Source: Ilex aquifolium
Lineage: Eukaryota > Streptophyta > Magnoliopsida > Aquifoliales > Aquifoliaceae
Reading direction: 5' to 3'
Length of the DNA: 64,000 nt
Assembly: GCA_951799425.1 (NCBI GenBank)
Contig: OX637409.1
Coordinates: forward strand, 23,218,501-23,282,500
Shown here: piece by piece, positions 4,201 to 57,628 of the stretch
Position numbering within the stretch: the stretch's first letter is position 1
How the letters are laid out: each line of letters starts with the position of its first letter
Translations under genes and position numbers: made by a program
The notes under the pieces: model-generated
The model's input: the letters and a program-made list of their open reading frames with translations, nothing else
Told to the model about the DNA's origin: nothing
Database searches by the model: none

Positions 4201-7200
4201 ATTTTCAGTTTATTTTTCTTCTTCTGATTGTGTTGTGCAGGATCCGCGTTTTAAGCTTATTGGGATAGGCAGTAAAAAAAAAAGGGTTGTATGTGTTGAA
4301 CAAGTTGCATATTCTAGATATTATTGCCTCTTCTATTGATTTGTCTTATTTTCATTTGAGTCTACAGTCTTCTAGCTTTTATTCGTAGCAATCTCGTCTT
4401 GGTTGTATTTCTCATTCACGTTTGAAATTTTTAGTAAGTTGGATAATTTAGAGTGTCATGACATTTTCAGCTGTAGTGGATGCAAATTAGTTAAATTCAA
4501 TGCATTACCCTTTCATAAAAGTTCGACTAGCTCTCTTGCACTTTTTGATTTGGTTCATTCAGATATATGGGGACCTGCTCCTATTCCCTCTAAAAGAGGG
4601 TGTAGATATTATGTTTCTTTTATTGATGATTATACTATGTATTGTTGGGTTTATCTAGTTGAAATTGTAGAAACGGAACTAGGGTAAGAAAAGGAGAAGA
4701 AGACGAAAGAAAATAATCTGTGTGTGAGTTGTTTTGTCATACCCTCTCTTATTTATATTGAACCCTATCTTAGGTAATTACAATATTACCCAACATAAAT
4801 ATAAAAACTAAAAATAATAACTCTTAACATTTCCCGTCAAGTTGGTGCATAAAGATAAAAAATGTCTAGTTTGGAAGAAAGATTATTAAAGGTACCTCGA
4901 GACAATGGTTTTATAAAAATATTACCAAACTGATCACCAAACTTGATATATGGAGCGATAATCTCTTTTCGCATTAGGAGATCTCAAATAAAATGACAAT
5001 CCACTTCTATGTGTTTGGTGCGCTCACGAAACACTAGATTATTGACAATGAAAATAGCTGCATGATTATCACAATACATTTGCATAGGAGAAGATACACT
5101 AATACCCATATCACAAAGTAAAACACGCACCCACAACATTTCACACGCCATGTGTGTCATAGTCCGATATTCAGCCTCTGCACTTGAACATGCAAATACA
5201 TTATGTTTCTTGCTACACCAAGCACCAAGATTAGAACCCACAAATGTGCAATAATCAGAAATAGATCGTCTATCAGTACGACTACCTACCTAGGTAGCAT
5301 CAGAAAAGCCAACAATAGTCGTACATGATGAATACCGATATAATAATCTTTTCTCGGGTGTTCAGCCTCCCAATGACGCTTGTAAGGAGCATACATAAAT
5401 TGACTACTTACTCCAACTGTAAATGTTAATTCAGGATGCGTAACTGTGAGGTAGATCAGTTTATCGGTCAATCTCCGATAGTGCCCTATGTCATCAAAAC
5501 TTTCCCACTATCAGCGTCTAACCTGACTGTAGAATCCATAGGGGTGTCAACTGGATGAGCACCAAGAGTACCAGCTTCATATAACAAATCTAATACGTAC
5601 TTTCGTTGGCATAGATTGATACTTTCTTTTGATCGAGTAACTTCAATCCCTAAAAAGTAACGAAGAAGACCCAGATTTTTAGTGTGAAACTGTTTCTCCA
5701 AATATAGTTTAAACTTGCAATACCATCAAAATTATCCCCACTAATGATAATGTCATCAACATGTACAATGAGAATGATAGAACGACGCATAAACACTGAA
5801 TGATCTGAAATAGAATGCTGAAAATCATATTATCAAACCAAACACGTGGTGATTATTTTAGACGATATAGTCTTTCTTCAGGTGATATACTAATTGTTCC
5901 TTACTAGAAGTAACATAACGTGGGAGTTGAACCATATATATTTCCTCCTGTAAATTTTCATGTAAAAAAACATTCTTTATATCCAATTAACCCTTGCCAA
6001 GCACGTGGTGATTATTTTAGACAATATAGTCTTTCTTCATGTGGACATACTAATTGTTCCTTACCAGAAGTAACATAACTTGGGGGTTGAATCATGTATA
6101 CCTCCTCCTGTAAATCTCCATGTAAAAAAACATTTTTTATATCTAGTTGGTACAAGGGTCAATCACGACAAGCTGCCATCAAAATAAGAATTCTAACAGA
6201 GTTAAATCGAGCAACATGGGAAAAAGTCTCACTATAATCCACACCATATGTCTGGATGTAGACTTTGCCAACTAACCGTGCCTTCATACGCTCAATGGAA
6301 CCATTGGGATGATATTTCACAATGTAGATCTAATGACAGCAGACAAGTTGCTTACTGGAAGGAATAGAAGTTAGGTCCCATGTATGATTGTCGTGAAGGG
6401 ATTTCATTTCTTCATCCATAGCTAGTTTTCATCTAGGAGATATCAATGTCTGTTGCAAAGAATTAGGAATAAATACAAAAGACAAGGATGATGCAAAACA
6501 ACGAAAAGATGAAAAAAGCTAATGTAAGAGACAAAATTAGAAATTGGATGTTGGATACAAGTACGAGTATCTTTCCTTAATGCAATAGACAAATCAGAAG
6601 AGGATGAACTGCCTGGTGGCTGAGAGGGTAGAACCTCAGTAGAATTAGGACATTGCTGTGGAGCTGGAGTATATGGAACAACCAGTCTCTGCTTGGAACA
6701 ACGATAAAACTGCAAGGGAGGAATAGTAATAGAAGAGGATGAAGATGCACAATCTGGTAGAACAGACAACAAGAGCTCCCCGACTGGGAAAGACTAAATC
6801 TGGGAAAAGTGTATGTCCTGATGCAGAAAAAAAAGATGACTCAAAAAAGATAACATCAGCTCTGCCATAGTATCGGCGAGAAACAAGATTATAACAACGA
6901 TAATCTTTTTGAATACGAGAATATTCCAAAAAGAAAAAAAACACTTAATCGAGCTAGGTGAAAGTTTATCCTGACCCAGACCGAGAAGATGAACAAATGC
7001 GACACAGCAAAAAACACGAGGAATAAGATGAAATGTTGATTTATCAGGGTATAGTAACGAGAAAGGGGATTGATTGTCTGAAATAGGGGAAGACATGCGA
7101 TTAATAAGATAGATTGAAGTAAGAACTGCATCAGCCCACTATGGTTTTGGTACATACATGTTAAACATCAAGGCGCAGACAACATCCAACAAATGACAAT

Positions 7201-9455
7201 GGTTATGTTAAACAACGCCATTTTGTCGAGAGGTATGTGAACATATGGTTTGGTGGATTGAATATACTCAAGAACATTGTCAAACTGAATAATTTTAATA
7301 CGTATATCAAACTGAACCAAAATTTCATTATAAAAAGGAATAAAGACTTTGGGCAAATCAGATTTGTCTTTCATAAAAATTAACCAAGTCATATGAGAAA
7401 AAATATCAACAAATATTACAAAATATTGAAAACTTGAGATACTTTTGACTCTTGGAGGAGCCCAAATGTCCCAATGGATGTGACCCCGCATATATGGTTA
7501 CTCAGCCTTCCTCATCTTCTTGGATCATTGATTCAGGAGCTAGTACCCATATGTTTGGTATGTTATCTTTATTCTCTAACGTTCATTCGTCAAACTCACG
7601 TATTGTGTTAGCTGATAGTTCTTTTCGACCAGTACATGGGACTGGCGATCTCTGTCCTACTCTGTTTTCCAAAAAACACTCCAAACTACTTTGGGTAGTG
7701 CGCTGTCAATTCAATTATCATGTCATGAATAGTCCGTTCGATGCAGCCAGGCTCTGCTGTTGGTGGAAGTTTATGAAATCAACAAAACATATCTGTTATA
7801 AAAGTTCGAAGACTTCTTTGCAGAGGCAACACAACATCTGCACCTTTCAGCTCAGTAATGATATCACATAGCTCAAGCAAGGAGATCTCTTTCTTGCTGA
7901 TTACTGTGCCAAGCAGTTTTGGGGAAGAAATGAATCATTATAAGTCGTTCGTGTGATGGGGCACTGTGAAGGATGCTGAGACTTGTGCCATGATAGTGAA
8001 GAATAGGGTTATGGTTTTGCAGTTTCTGTCTGGACTGAACCCAGAGTTGAATTTGCATTTTTATTCCTAACCAGAATCTCTAGAAGGTTCATGTCTGTCA
8101 AGTTCCATTGAATATGTCCGTGAATAGTTCATTATCTATTACTGCAGGCTATGGGAGAGTGAATTTGTCAGCTGGTGTCGCCCTTTTTCAACTACCCATG
8201 ATTTTAAGATTCCTGCTCTCACATGAACAGCTACTTCACCACCCCTCTTAACCGTCTCTCTTCTTCACATACTATGAATGAACGTTCAATATTTGGATAG
8301 AATTGAGGTATTGGTAGTGATTCTATTTTACACCACATCGCGTGTATTCTGTTTTGTGGTGCTATTGAGGTACATGAAGAACATATATCTTTATTTTCCT
8401 AAATTTTGGCATAATTTAGTTTGCATGACTAGTCTATGGGCTAAAGTATGTCATCATAAAAGAATGACCCTACTTATCATTTTTGTGCCATGCTAGGACA
8501 ACTATGATCAGGATACTAGTAGCACATTTCTGCAACATCAGATAAGCGTGATAGACCAAAGTATCTTTGATCATATATAATCTATCATGGAGACCAAGGA
8601 TACTCAAGTGGCTAGTAGTTCCATCCTCCATGTGGGTGACACAAGTTTGAGTCTCAATGAAGTTGATGTTCTGCACTCACCCAAGTCGTCATATTTTTAG
8701 CATGACCAAAGTTAGAATTGTATAACAGTCAACTAGACAAGAATGTTGCAGTTGCATTATCTACCAGGGCAGTACCTTTCGAGCTCCTTCAGAACTTATT
8801 GTGTATAAGAACATGCAGGAATCTGCTGGTTTTAGTTGTTGTCCATTGCTATTTATAATGTCTTCTTTTGCTTGTCATTATCTTTGTAGTTTATCCAATT
8901 TCAAATCGTGCGAGGCCCATTGATATTGATAGTTTATGTTGTTTCCAATGCAACTTTGAATTCAATTGTCGTGCATAGAATATTTGGAGAGTGGCCACCT
9001 GAAATGAAGGAGTTTAAAAGTATTTCATGGACTCTCTTTCTTGCCTTCATGTTGAATTAAATATTATTGTCTTTGATGGTCTTATATAATATGTGCGTGT
9101 TTTTCAGAGAATAAATGCAATCAATGCACAATATGAAGAACAGTTAGCTGCACTTCGAGCACAGCATGCCAGTCATAGAGATGAGTTCCTTCGGAGGGAA
9201 TCTCATGGACGACAACAGCAGTACCAGCAGGCAATGGACCATTTCACTAGCACCGACATGGGTCCCAGTGACCCTCACGGTTATGGTGCAGCTGTAGCAC
9301 CAGGTGGAGAGCAACTTCGAGCCTATGGTGGTGATAACTACGATTCTTATAGGGAGCAGACCCGATTCCTTGGGAATACCAGGGATCGCGGATTTGAGTC
9401 CCGAGGTCAATATCCTGGGGGTCGTGTCTATGACACCGCCTCACGCTATTACTGA
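1290..9455 (+). CDS. conserved plant coiled-coil protein, last two exons (5' part outside or unseen)
   Basis: Two exons, 1290-1537 and 9108-9455, join in frame and end at TGA 9453-9455, giving about 197 C-terminal residues. The first exon starts after a TAG acceptor with two bases that complete a codon, so at least one upstream coding exon is missing. I could not identify it in 1-1289, and no in-frame ATG near 1290 makes a convincing start. The protein has an acidic stretch (EEDMEVGYEDNLLSQTF), then a helical, Glu/Gln/Arg-rich segment (INAQYEEQLAALRAQHASH) typical of a coiled coil, then a Gly/Tyr/Arg-rich, probably disordered tail ending YDTASRYY. I see no enzyme motif, signal peptide or membrane segment. 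The intron between the exons is 7.57 kb and full of retrotransposon debris. I do not recognise a named family. Arabidopsis may have the counterpart next to UBP8 (At5g22040), but that is from memory. Exon structure is fairly sure; function is unknown. Confidence 0.75.
2428..2439 (+). promoter_or_regulatory. copia primer binding site
   Basis: TGGTATCAGAGC is the canonical site complementary to the 3' end of initiator tRNA-Met. It directly follows an LTR ending in CA, so it fixes the orientation and the 5' LTR boundary of this element. Confidence 0.75.
3425..3701. mobile_element. hAT-type MITE with GCTCG-rich body
   Basis: The left end is GGGGTGTT and the right end AACACC, an imperfect inverted repeat. 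The body is a series of degenerate GAGCTCGGCTCGAG motifs in both directions, a widespread plant MITE type. The flanks are TGTGGTTA (3417-3424) and TGTGGTTG (3702-3709), an 8-bp target duplication with one mismatch, as expected for hAT. It lies inside the plus-strand copia remnant and is therefore younger than it. Confidence 0.6.
4666..4829 (-). repeat. 3' LTR of the minus-strand copia
   Basis: On the minus strand the segment begins TGTTAAGAG directly after a purine-rich stretch (GACGGGAAA) and ends with CA next to integrase sequence of the other element. It is about 164 bp and TC-rich towards its 3' end, like many short copia LTRs. Confidence 0.55.
4666..7491 (-). mobile_element. Ty1/copia remnant, minus strand (integrase, RT, RNase H, 3' LTR)
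   Basis: Reading the minus strand from 7491 down: integrase core (SSFQYFVIFVDIFSHMTWLIF, then FDNVLEY), reverse transcriptase (about 6345-5500, with KARLVGK and ETFSHVARFNSVRIL), a polymerase box VHVDD in place of the usual YVDD near 5750, RNase H (ACSSAEAEYRTM, DNHAA, RTKHIEVDCHF at 5241-4984), then a purine-rich stretch and an LTR at 4829-4666. Frameshifts and stops separate all domains. Gag, protease and the 5' LTR are missing. The RT carries a tandem duplication of about 159 bp (5843-6160). The LTR end at 4666 falls within the integrase frame of the plus-strand copia, so this element appears to have inserted there. Confidence 0.75.
7492..8110 (+). mobile_element. third copia fragment: protease and gag pieces
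   Basis: At 7510-7650 the plus strand encodes a copia protease start with intact active site (WIIDSGASTHM, then IVLADSS). At about 7960-8070 a gag-like piece (VLQFLSGLNPELN) appears in a broken frame. Protease before gag is the reverse of normal order, so the segment is rearranged or joins pieces of two elements. Confidence 0.5.
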
Positions 9456-11889: not shown

Positions 11890-34642
<22,753 letters not shown>

Positions 34643-47727: not shown

Positions 47728-48514
47728 TTTTTTCGGTGCTTTGAAGATGGAACCTTAGTCACTTAGATTCCCTTATAAAAAAACACTAGTAATGTCTACC
47801 GTCAGAAAAGAAAATATATAAGACAGTTCAGCTCCTAGCTTGGCAAGGCAGTCAGCGCATTGGTTACCCTCCCTCAATGTGTGCTTTGGGATGATGTTAT
47901 TCGCGCGGATGATGTATCTACAGTTCTCAATGAGGGTTTTGAAAGGGTGGCAATCTATCATGCTCCTAGTAAGAAGGTTGAAGGTATCAATTGAATCAAT
48001 TTCAAAGATGCAGTTGATTCCTCTGTTATGGACCATTTGGAAGCCTTTAAAGGTTGCCCACAGTTCAGCTTTGAGACTGGTAGTCTGGTTAATTCTCCCA
48101 GCGAAGCCCTCCTTCCAATATCCTATATCATCTCTTAGAATCCCTCCAATGCCAGCATTTCCCGGATTCCCTCTCGAGTAGCCATTGGTGTTGATCTTGA
48201 ACCAGCCTGTATGAGGGAAAATCCAACTAATAAGTTTAATTTAGGAGGAAAAGATAGGACTTGGGAGCTTGTAATCTTAAAAGCATCAACTGTTTCTTGG
48301 GTAAACAGTCTGGTTTTTATCTTCTCTATGCATTCACTGTTCCTGTATTTCCAAATGCCCAATAGGATAGACATGAAAACAGTTGAGGCCAAGGTACTCC
48401 ATACCAAAAAGTCTTAGCTCTTGTGCAGCAGTACTTTCTGCACCATTCTGGGAGGCTAAGGGCTTTGACTATGTCTCTAACTTGAGGGTTTAGAAATTTT
48501 TCCAAACTTCATGT
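47728..48514 (-). mobile_element. 5'-truncated LINE with 14-bp target duplication
   Basis: GACAGGTGCATTTT flanks the insert exactly (47714-47727 and 48515-48528). A T-run at the left end is the poly-A tail on the minus strand. The minus strand encodes a plant L1-type RNase H tail in broken frames (SGLKAELWATF-like region near 48060, then FEIDSIDTFNLL and LREGNQCADCLAKLG), preceded by a segment typical of the zinc-knuckle region. About 790 bp of the 3' end is left, which is usual for LINE insertions. Confidence 0.85.
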
Positions 48515-54863: not shown

Positions 54864-56197
54864 TCAATGTAGATGTTGATATGGTGTGGATTTTTTTTTA
54901 AAGGGGTGGCTAACCCTTGGGTGGCCCAATGATTGAGTATGATCTTTGGTAACCCAATTCAAATCACGGTGGTCAGTCGCTGAGTTCGAAAGAATAATCG
55001 GTACAAGCTTGGATAATTTGTAATAAAAATAAAATTTAATTCACCCTATTAGTGGTAATTTATTTGGTCTTCATTTTTAATCTTATTTTTTGGTACATGT
55101 TACTTAATCACATATCAATATTGTATTGTGTATTCTTAAGTTATTAAATTAGGTGGTGTTTATTAAACTCAATTCAGCCCTTAAAATAAATATATTATGT
55201 ACTTTAAATTAAGTATGTTTGATAAATAAAATGAATATCTCTAAATATATTAAGTACATCTCAGCAATAAACTAAGATATTAAGTAGGAGATTTTACTAT
55301 TTGGATGTATTAAAGGTATTTTAGATTTTTGTTAACAAACTTAACCGTGTAATTTGGTCTAGAAATAACAATGGCATTATGTTTTTTATTTTTGTAGGTT
55401 AAGGGTGTCGTGAGAAATGGCATATCGATATAATATAATTTGAAATTTACCAAACGATATAAAATAATCCGCAATGCAATTTTATTTTTAGTGACATAAT
55501 TAATTTAGTTATTAAAAATATGAAAATTTTAGTGATGCCGTGAAAATCGTCGCTGACGGTTTGTTTGGATGAATTTTGGGGAGGGTTTTGGATTGGCTTC
55601 TCCAAACCCAAACCCCTTTTTGTAAATATGAGATTCAACAATCCAATTCATACTCATGTTTGATATATAATACATACATATGTAGGACCTACGGATATAT
55701 CATAATTATTAATAACTATTTGTCATATAAATGACTATTTTACCCTTGATCAATCCAATTCATACACACGTTAGAGCATCTCCAACCATGACTCAAATTT
55801 AGACTCAAATTTGAGTAAAAAGCTTGATTTGATATAGAGTACTCAAATGGACAAACTCAAATATCTACTCAAATCTTTTAAAAAAAATTATTATTGTCCC
55901 AAAACTCATTTTTTTTGTCTCATTCAAATCGTGATATTTGATAAAATAAATGAAACTTGCATATCTCTCCACAAATGGGTAATTAAAAAAATGAATATGT
56001 ACACAGTATTAAATGGGAGTAAAGAAACCACCATAGAATTCTAAAATTGTTCTAATTCTTTATCATTTTTTATAAATCCAGATAAAAAAAAGAAAAAAAA
56101 TAACTATTTTGACATAGCCTGGTCTGAAGAACACAAATTTTTTAAATTTGTGGGTAGCGAAGGCTTAAAATTTCAGGAAGAATCGGTAGCCTGAAAT

Positions 56198-56985
56198 TAG
56201 GGGTGTTCAAATTTCTGACTGGCCCCAAGTTCCTACCCTACCCGACCCTACCCTACTGAACGGTTAGCCGCAAAAATCGGGTAGGAATGCGGAAGAATTT
56301 TTGGTCTTCCGATTAAATCGGGTAGGAATGCGGAATAACCATCCATTTCCGCATTCCTACCCTACCCTACCCGCATTAATTAATTAAACAAAAAAAAACC
56401 CTAATCTACTGAGTCTTGATAGCACCTGGGCCTCACACCTCACTCCACTGCTCCTCCTAAAAAAAACCCTAAGCAAACGTGTTTTGTTGTCTTGTATGCT
56501 GGACAGACTGACCTTAAACATGCACATATTATGTTTGATGAAATATCTAAACCATGTATTGTATCTAATAACGCGATACTCGATGCGTTTGGGAAAAATG
56601 GGGACATGAGTTCTGTTGTTTTGCTCTTTGAACGTATGCGTTTGGGAAAATGATTCAATTATGGTGGATTGATGTTCATATTTTCTTGTATTTTATTATA
56701 ATTCTTATTGTAGTTATTTTAGATTTTAGTGTTATTGATTTATTGTGTTGTTAAATTGGTGCATGTTATTTAATTAAATTGTTAAAATGATTTAAAAATT
56801 AATAGTTACAAAAGTGTTTACCCGACTTCCTACCCGATTTTCTACCCGATTAATCGGGTAGGAAGTCGGGTAGGAATACCACACCTGTCGGGTAGGGTAG
56901 GCCAAGAAAAAATTCTTCCGCAAAGTATCGGGTAGGAAGACGGAAGAGCATATTTCCTACCCGTAGGGTAGGGTGAACACCCCTA
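56198..56985. mobile_element. non-autonomous hAT element carrying a PPR gene fragment
   Basis: Perfect 12-bp ends TAGGGGTGTTCA / TGAACACCCCTA are bordered by CCTGAAAT on both sides (56190-56197, 56986-56993), the 8-bp duplication of hAT. Subterminal parts are packed with CTACCC/GGGTAG motifs. The central part includes an open stretch that reads as pentatricopeptide repeats (see next entry). No transposase is present. Confidence 0.85.
56471..56653 (+). pseudogene. captured pentatricopeptide-repeat (PPR) gene fragment
   Basis: The plus strand is open for 60 codons up to TGA 56651-56653. It reads LYAGQTDLKHAHIMFDEI, then KPCIVSNNAILDAFGKNGDM, then SSVVLLFERM. This is the spacing and wording of PPR motifs (LYA-G-x-L-x-A-x-x-x-FDEI; V-S-x-NA-x-L-x-A-x-x-K-N-G-D-M; A-x-x-LFERM). 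A typical Trp (VSWNA) is Asn here and an Ala is Val, so it may be decaying. There is no start codon or targeting peptide. It is a fragment of a host gene inside a hAT element, not a working gene. Confidence 0.75.
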
Positions 56986-57435
56986 CCTGAAATTGTGCTA
57001 CTGATAGTGTTTAATTCAAAAAAATCAAAAAAAAATTAATAGGTAGGTTTAAGGTTTATATAGTATGAAAAATAGGTGAATTATAGTTTTAAAAAAATAC
57101 AAGAAATCAAGAAGATAGAAGATGAAAAGGAAAAAAACTTACCTACAGGCCTTCAAATGATTTGTGAAAGTTTCGATGATAGTCGGTGATGAAAACAATG
57201 TAGTAGAGAGAGGCAGAGAACAAGTCGTTGAAGAAGTCTTTTAGTTTTGGATAGGTTAAAAAGTTACCGTTAGAAATTTGGTATAGAATTTGAGTCTACT
57301 TCAATTTGGGTTCAGAATAAGTTTTACCTTGATTTGATATAGATTTGAGTCTAAGGTTGGAGAATTTTTTTGACCCATTTTGACTCAAATTTAAAATTAA
57401 ATCTATATTTGAATCAAGATTTGAGATGTTCTTAA

Positions 57436-57628
57436 CCCCTTACTCATCTTTCCAAACCCACCCTCTATGTTTGACGAAACCCATAATCATGAGTTTAATC
57501 TTCAAGCTAGCTACGAGCCGAGTTTGGAAATCCGAGACTAAAATTTTCATACAAACATGTGATTTGGGGGTCATTTGGACTATTTTCCTCAAACCCATCT
57601 TACCAAACTCTCCCATATCAAACAGCCC
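57436..57628. mobile_element. Tourist-like MITE (TAA-flanked)
   Basis: TAA borders it at 57433-57435 and 57629-57631. The right end CATATCAAACAGCCC is the Tourist-type terminus. Inside, the minus strand resembles the neighbour's GAGTTTGG...GGGTTTG sequence. The left end is poorly matched, so it may be a partial copy. Confidence 0.45.

Follow-up and report, generated by a model that had tools for sequence, protein, structure and literature searches.

A short hAT-type transposon family in which some copies very probably carry a captured fragment of a PPR gene

Introduction

The locus studied here raises the question of how a piece that reads as a pentatricopeptide repeat (PPR) gene came to lie within a short transposon, and of whether this piece still serves a function there. 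The locus is an element of 788 bp (positions 56198-56985) in a 64,000-nucleotide stretch of Ilex aquifolium DNA, which was analysed as a whole and is referred to as the window. We propose that the window copy is very probably a Pack-hAT, a non-autonomous hAT-type transposon that has taken up part of a plant PPR gene, and that it arose in two steps.

Results

The ends of the element and its assignment to the hAT superfamily

The preliminary description of this DNA had given the coordinates of the element and of its PPR frame correctly. The perfect 12-bp inverted ends and the exact 8-bp duplication that it reported were confirmed in the window (Table 1), where the ends TAGGGGTGTTCA and TGAACACCCCTA are perfect reverse complements and where the end motif has four further matches, each with two mismatches. 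Among the 22 distinct elements read from the genome, the 8-bp duplication is identical in 18 (among them L017, if its right end is taken to have lost 1 bp) and matches at 7 of the 8 positions in three (L013, L014 and L021), while the rearranged L020 has no matching duplication and was retained as a negative. With so many identical and near-identical duplications, the boundaries of the window element are not attributable to chance.

Table 1. Parts of the element and its flanking duplications, in window coordinates.
Feature	Position	Strand	Basis or remark
Left copy of the target-site duplication, CCTGAAAT	56190..56197	.	Sequence; identical to 56986-56993
Left terminal inverted repeat, TAGGGGTGTTCA	56198..56209	+	
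Left subterminal region	56210..56387	+	Common to PPR and PPR-less copies
End of the element's own leader, ...CCCTAATCTACT	56388..56410	+	Alignment; common to L024, L025 and L027 with small differences
Foreign stretch, first piece	56411..56458	+	Found in L021 but in no PPR-less copy
Filler AAAAAAAACCCTAAG where the internal deletion lies	56459..56473	+	Bases 1-14 identical to 56391-56404 in the leader
PPR coding fragment, probably captured	56474..56655	+	Frame stays open as far as TGA 56651-56653
3' part of the element proper, from CAATTATGG onwards	56656..56973	+	8 GGGTAGG/CCTACCC in the element's last 188 bases
Right terminal inverted repeat, TGAACACCCCTA	56974..56985	-	
Right copy of the target-site duplication, CCTGAAAT	56986..56993	.	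Sequence

The terminal inverted repeats of hAT elements are short and start like those of Ac, with (C/T)AGGG, and subterminal clusters of a short repeated motif are typical of Ac and its relatives. The ends of the present family are short and begin like Ac (TAGGGGTGTTCA, perfect in the window copy), and its target-site duplication is 8 bp long. The motif GGGTAGG/CCTACCC occurs eight times in the first 190 bases of the window element and eight times near its right end, with none in the middle 410 bases, as compared with a mean of 0.04 GGGTAGG on either strand per whole element in 1000 base shuffles. Apparently, the family is a multicopy, non-autonomous hAT-like one, presumably moved by a hAT transposase. 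The element strand folds back strongly (RNA z -9.5 and DNA z -9.4, with 20 shuffles each); this pairing stems mainly from the inverted subterminal repeats, between which the PPR DNA sits.

Copies with and without the PPR piece

The family was profiled by searching once the 800-Mb genome to which the window belongs; as scoring was applied to the best 40 of 2052 first-look candidates, all copy numbers are minimum values. The PPR piece (query 274-456) is wholly or nearly covered at 29 of these best 40 of 2052 places, the window copy included; at the other 11, the match is limited to query positions of about 1-190 (up to 1-213) and 459-788. The 22 elements that were read are the window copy and L008-L028 (L002-L007 duplicate L009-L014 and are not counted again); the piece is present in 16 of them (window copy, L008-L021 and L028) and missing from six (L022-L027). 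Hence, the comparison of same-end relatives that the preliminary description had suggested yields both kinds of copies, and its alternative of an open stretch present in all members as non-coding sequence does not hold. As in gene-capturing hAT elements, a host-gene fragment is missing from sister elements.

The mean K2P distance is 0.062 among 15 PPR copies (L017 left out) and 0.141 between the PPR and PPR-less forms, a value which overstates their divergence because unlike centres are aligned in some columns. Within the PPR form, the inner branches of the tree are mostly very short, with a support of 0.2 to 0.8 and of 0.99 for the L008 and L012 pair; such short branches would be the pattern expected from a burst.

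No other copy of the element was found in the window, where the remaining matches are short ones among its own repeats and chance-level ones (E 0.012 or more). Elsewhere in the genome, L028 (G000:C18:22190280-22192050) bears a nested insertion of 549 bp with inverted termini (GGGTTAATTGCACTGGAGG... and its complement) in a TA-rich part of the element. The element in L026 adjoins a stretch (G000:C10:6816680-6816927) that is 70% identical to element positions 543-785 in the opposite orientation, and that is possibly a diverged relative.

The foreign stretch and its breakpoints

The PPR and PPR-less copies agree to ...CCCTAATCTACT (56410), and again from CAATTATGG (56656). The agreement up to 56410 is seen in L024, L025 and L027, the 586-bp copies being without the leader. 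The left breakpoint follows CTACT (56410) and the right one precedes CAATTATGG (56656), so that the whole foreign stretch, about 56411-56655, is longer than the PPR frame alone. Its first piece (56411-56458) was captured either along with the PPR gene or separately.

Between the breakpoints, L024, L025 and L027 contain TTTTGTTCACAGATC...ATGGATGAAATGACTCCACAATCATCTGCT..., a possible intron end followed by a putative transposase start. These PPR-less copies retain the splice-acceptor-like TTTTGTTCACAG, then ATGGATGAAATGACTCC...; the putative transposase start matched no family and, in L025, is interrupted by an in-frame stop. That the breakpoints lie in the leader and in the tail, on either side of this putative start, fits what a replacement of the transposase predicts, and the simplest reading is that foreign DNA took the place of a transposase gene.

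Two smaller repeats lie in the foreign DNA. Near its 3' junction, positions 56636-56650 are an exact 15-bp repeat of 56583-56597 (ATGCGTTTGGGAAAA at both 56583 and 56636), and the last bases of the PPR piece, that is the repeated ATGCGTTTGGGAAAA, are possibly a second filler. The first foreign piece is partly duplicated, in CACTCCACTGCGCCTCACACCT-like units, in L008, L012, L013, L015, L028 and, by translation, L017; these units are a small tandem repeat growing inside the captured DNA.

The PPR identity of the foreign piece

The preliminary description had read a 60-codon stretch as PPRs, and this reading is borne out: the HMM search that could have refuted it shows PPR homology. The window frame (56471-56650) is open up to its TGA and scores slightly over the cut-off of the NCBIfam PPR model (21.1 bits, cut-off 20), and under those of Pfam PPR_2 (E 8e-5, 23.1 bits, cut-off 30) and Pfam PPR (22.4 bits, cut-off 25). 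The majority frame of the copies reaches 27.3 bits with Pfam PPR, over the cut-off of 25, and 27.8 with PPR_2 (cut-off 30). The long form, L021 (1167 bp), has an open frame of 167 codons (L021:423-923:-) with 47.7 bits for PPR_2 and 37.4 bits for PPR, well over the same cut-offs, which makes the PPR reading secure. Residues 37-164 of L021 match a synthetic PPR-DYW protein with an E-value of 2.3e-38, such E-values being inflated for repeat proteins. The best two matches of L021 are PLS-type designs (PPR-DYW and PLS9-PPR), and this one listing suggests that the donor was a PLS-class PPR gene. A 102-codon frame on the reverse strand matched no Pfam family.

The long form, the internal deletion and the filler

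In L021, the foreign stretch extends from element position 224 to about 950. The short form of the window copy and L021 have the first 48 foreign bases in common (window 56411-56458 and L021 224-271). The next 497 bases of L021 (element positions 272-768) are missing in the window copy, after which both go on with CAAACGTG (L021 769, window 56474). As L021 reads ...SNDPFVQTCFVV... in one frame across the point at which the window copy is interrupted, the long form is the older of the two and the short form is derived from it. The long form was found in one of the 22 elements read, and the two-step order therefore rests on one copy.

In the window copy, the 497 bp are replaced by the 15-bp filler AAAAAAAACCCTAAG. 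An A-run followed by CCCTAA is a motif common in plant gene leaders. The filler being such a simple A-run with CCCTAA, it came probably, though not certainly, from the leader of the element. Abortive gap repair with template switching could leave a filler whose first 14 bases repeat the element's leader, and the deletion could have been sealed in this way with nearby element DNA. For Ac/Ds, abortive gap repair has been put forward by Rubin and Levy (1997, cited in PMC2213677).

Changes in the PPR frame among copies

Substitutions were counted in 15 PPR copies (L017 left out), changes inherited by several copies being counted repeatedly. They fall almost evenly on codon positions 1, 2 and 3 of the PPR frame (23, 21 and 22; chi-square P 0.96), so no codon constraint was detected among these copies. 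The numbers of amino-acid changes, silent changes and stops are 42, 21 and 3, and those expected from the spectrum of the element's other parts are 58.8, 19.3 and 2.5. The amino-acid share (42/63 versus 75% expected; one-sided P 0.08, two-sided P 0.14) is a weak deficit that leaves some room for leftover constraint. An extra stop occurs in three of the 15 copies (L009, L010 and L019), and the frame, 76 codons in all, has no ATG before its codon 37, which is one. A coding or selected frame is not upheld by these counts, and the PPR piece is most likely passenger DNA that evolves without protein constraint. In the non-PPR parts, changes from the majority base are frequent for C-to-T and G-to-A (0.061 and 0.051 per site) as compared with A-to-G and T-to-C (0.006 and 0.004), an excess that would be expected for methylated DNA.

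No Rfam family matched the window at its gathering score. Four RNA-family hits at 55500-57600 and, in a search of ten loci, eight in L005 and L006 were all under the gathering scores and were judged to be due to chance.

Other features of the window

A ubiquitin carboxyl-terminal hydrolase gene probably has an exon at window positions 31803-32237 (+; Pfam UCH, 85.2 bits, cut-off 23.9). Probable remnants of retroelement polyproteins lie on opposite strands at 6797-7138 (-) and 7449-7868 (+), with Pol_BBD over its cut-off (36.5 bits) and SH3_retrovirus under (20.3 bits). A reverse-transcriptase-like domain at 47776-48240 (-; RVT_3, 59.2 bits, cut-off 21.6) is probably a retroelement remnant as well.

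Discussion

A proposed two-step origin of the PPR-carrying form

From these data, we propose the following succession of events. The transposase region of a hAT element would have been lost, and about 730 bp of DNA including part of a PLS-like PPR gene acquired, which corresponds to the state of L021. A second rearrangement would then have deleted 497 bp of the captured DNA, leaving the short leader-like filler. The resulting short form, in which about 177 bp of PPR-like coding sequence are kept, would have spread with a transposase supplied in trans. The ends, the duplications, the forms with and without the PPR piece, the long form, the deletion and the filler are directly seen in the copies. 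It is homology, rather than a comparison of donor and copy, that points to the capture, and gap repair with template switching may have operated in both the capture and the deletion. The order of events before L021 is that which we infer.

Alternative explanations

The PPR DNA could have been enclosed instead of copied in, if part of a PPR gene lay between two adjacent family members whose outer ends came to act as one transposon and whose inner ends decayed. This route has been proposed for Pack-TYPE elements, hATs included (PMC8903248), and in L021 an internal stretch of 12 bases, at element position 506, does resemble the right end; lying inside the PPR frame and having three mismatches, this match is probably a chance one. 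Against such a fusion, the window copy is devoid of any internal end match, even when three mismatches are allowed, and internal matches occur in five of the 22 elements read (L008, L012, L016, L021 and L027), one in each and all with three mismatches. The position of the breakpoints around the putative transposase start of other copies is also what a replacement predicts, and we regard the fusion as rather unlikely. Even less credit can be given to the idea that the insert is a chance similarity in a short open frame instead of a PPR gene fragment: the window copy taken alone scores under the curated Pfam cut-offs, but the long frame of L021 exceeds them with two PPR models and matches a PPR-DYW protein, which rules out a chance open frame for practically all purposes.

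Another possibility is that the fragment is functional, either because a fold-back transcript yields small RNAs that affect the donor PPR gene, or relatives of it, or because the frame is translated. The strong RNA fold-back (z -9.5 versus 20 shuffles) and the many similar copies with the fragment (29 of the best 40 of 2052 places) speak for it, whereas the pairing comes mainly from the inverted subterminal repeats on either side of the PPR DNA, no codon constraint was detected, three of 15 copies have an extra stop and the window has no Rfam match at the gathering score. We hold such a function to be very improbable, and the hope expressed in the preliminary description that the fragment could seed new PPR genes or make small RNAs is left unsupported by the codon counts, the late first ATG and the extra stops. 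It would be a bold speculation, with very long odds, that one capture of the 5' part of a PPR gene, trimmed by self-templated repair and amplified to tens or more of fold-back copies, became a dispersed source of small RNAs against a PPR subfamily. The capture of a passenger fragment, followed by its trimming, is thus the reading that we retain.

Comparison with known gene-capturing transposons

The family is an unusually legible case of gene capture by hAT elements, as three states stand side by side: copies without PPR DNA, a long capture, and a trimmed capture with its filler. Since these states are kept together, knowledge of the donor gene could allow the capture to be read at the level of single bases. 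The family could also account for spurious PPR fragments in the annotation of this genome.

In the preliminary description, gene capture was said to be less often reported for short hAT elements. The rarity is fairly stated, and the maize Ds paper also terms hAT gene capture rare (PMC3260210), but the phenomenon is not new, as it is known in maize Ds, in grapevine Hatvine-6 and in the Pack-hATs surveyed in maize and rice (PMC8903248). A PPR fragment inside a hAT was met in no report of the literature searched, many journals lying outside that search.

In maize, two Ds2 and nine Ds-l4 elements carry gene fragments, the modal length of Ds-l4 being about 1 kb, and the authors cited excision-break repair as a possible route of capture (PMC3260210). 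Like the present family, Ds2 and Ds-l4 are non-autonomous hATs with short ends and captured gene pieces; unlike it, they hold pieces of other genes (a text search of PMC3260210 found no occurrence of pentatricopeptide), while here one capture recurs at 29 of the 40 places scored (best 40 of 2052). Paired sets with and without a short gene fragment also occur in cluster #18 of Zm-Pack-PIF, where 52 fragment-free elements have a mean length of 402 bp and 72 elements carrying 163 bp of a gene have one of 535 bp; in contrast to our family, this cluster is of the PIF type and its donor gene was identified (PMC8903248). Grapevine offers two parallels (PMC2528002). Hatvine-6, a hAT family, has also taken up genic DNA, but its elements have a transposase coding sequence in common and their listed duplication is 9 bp long. 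Cactavine-5 acquired a portion of a PPR gene, as our family probably did, but it is a CACTA element, and the capture is present in two copies. Finally, Pack-hAT-N8_XT of the western clawed frog is, like the present family, a multicopy hAT that carries part of a host gene and has distinct target duplications, but it is an animal element with 291 bp of a 5' UTR, found on three chromosomes (PMC8277862).
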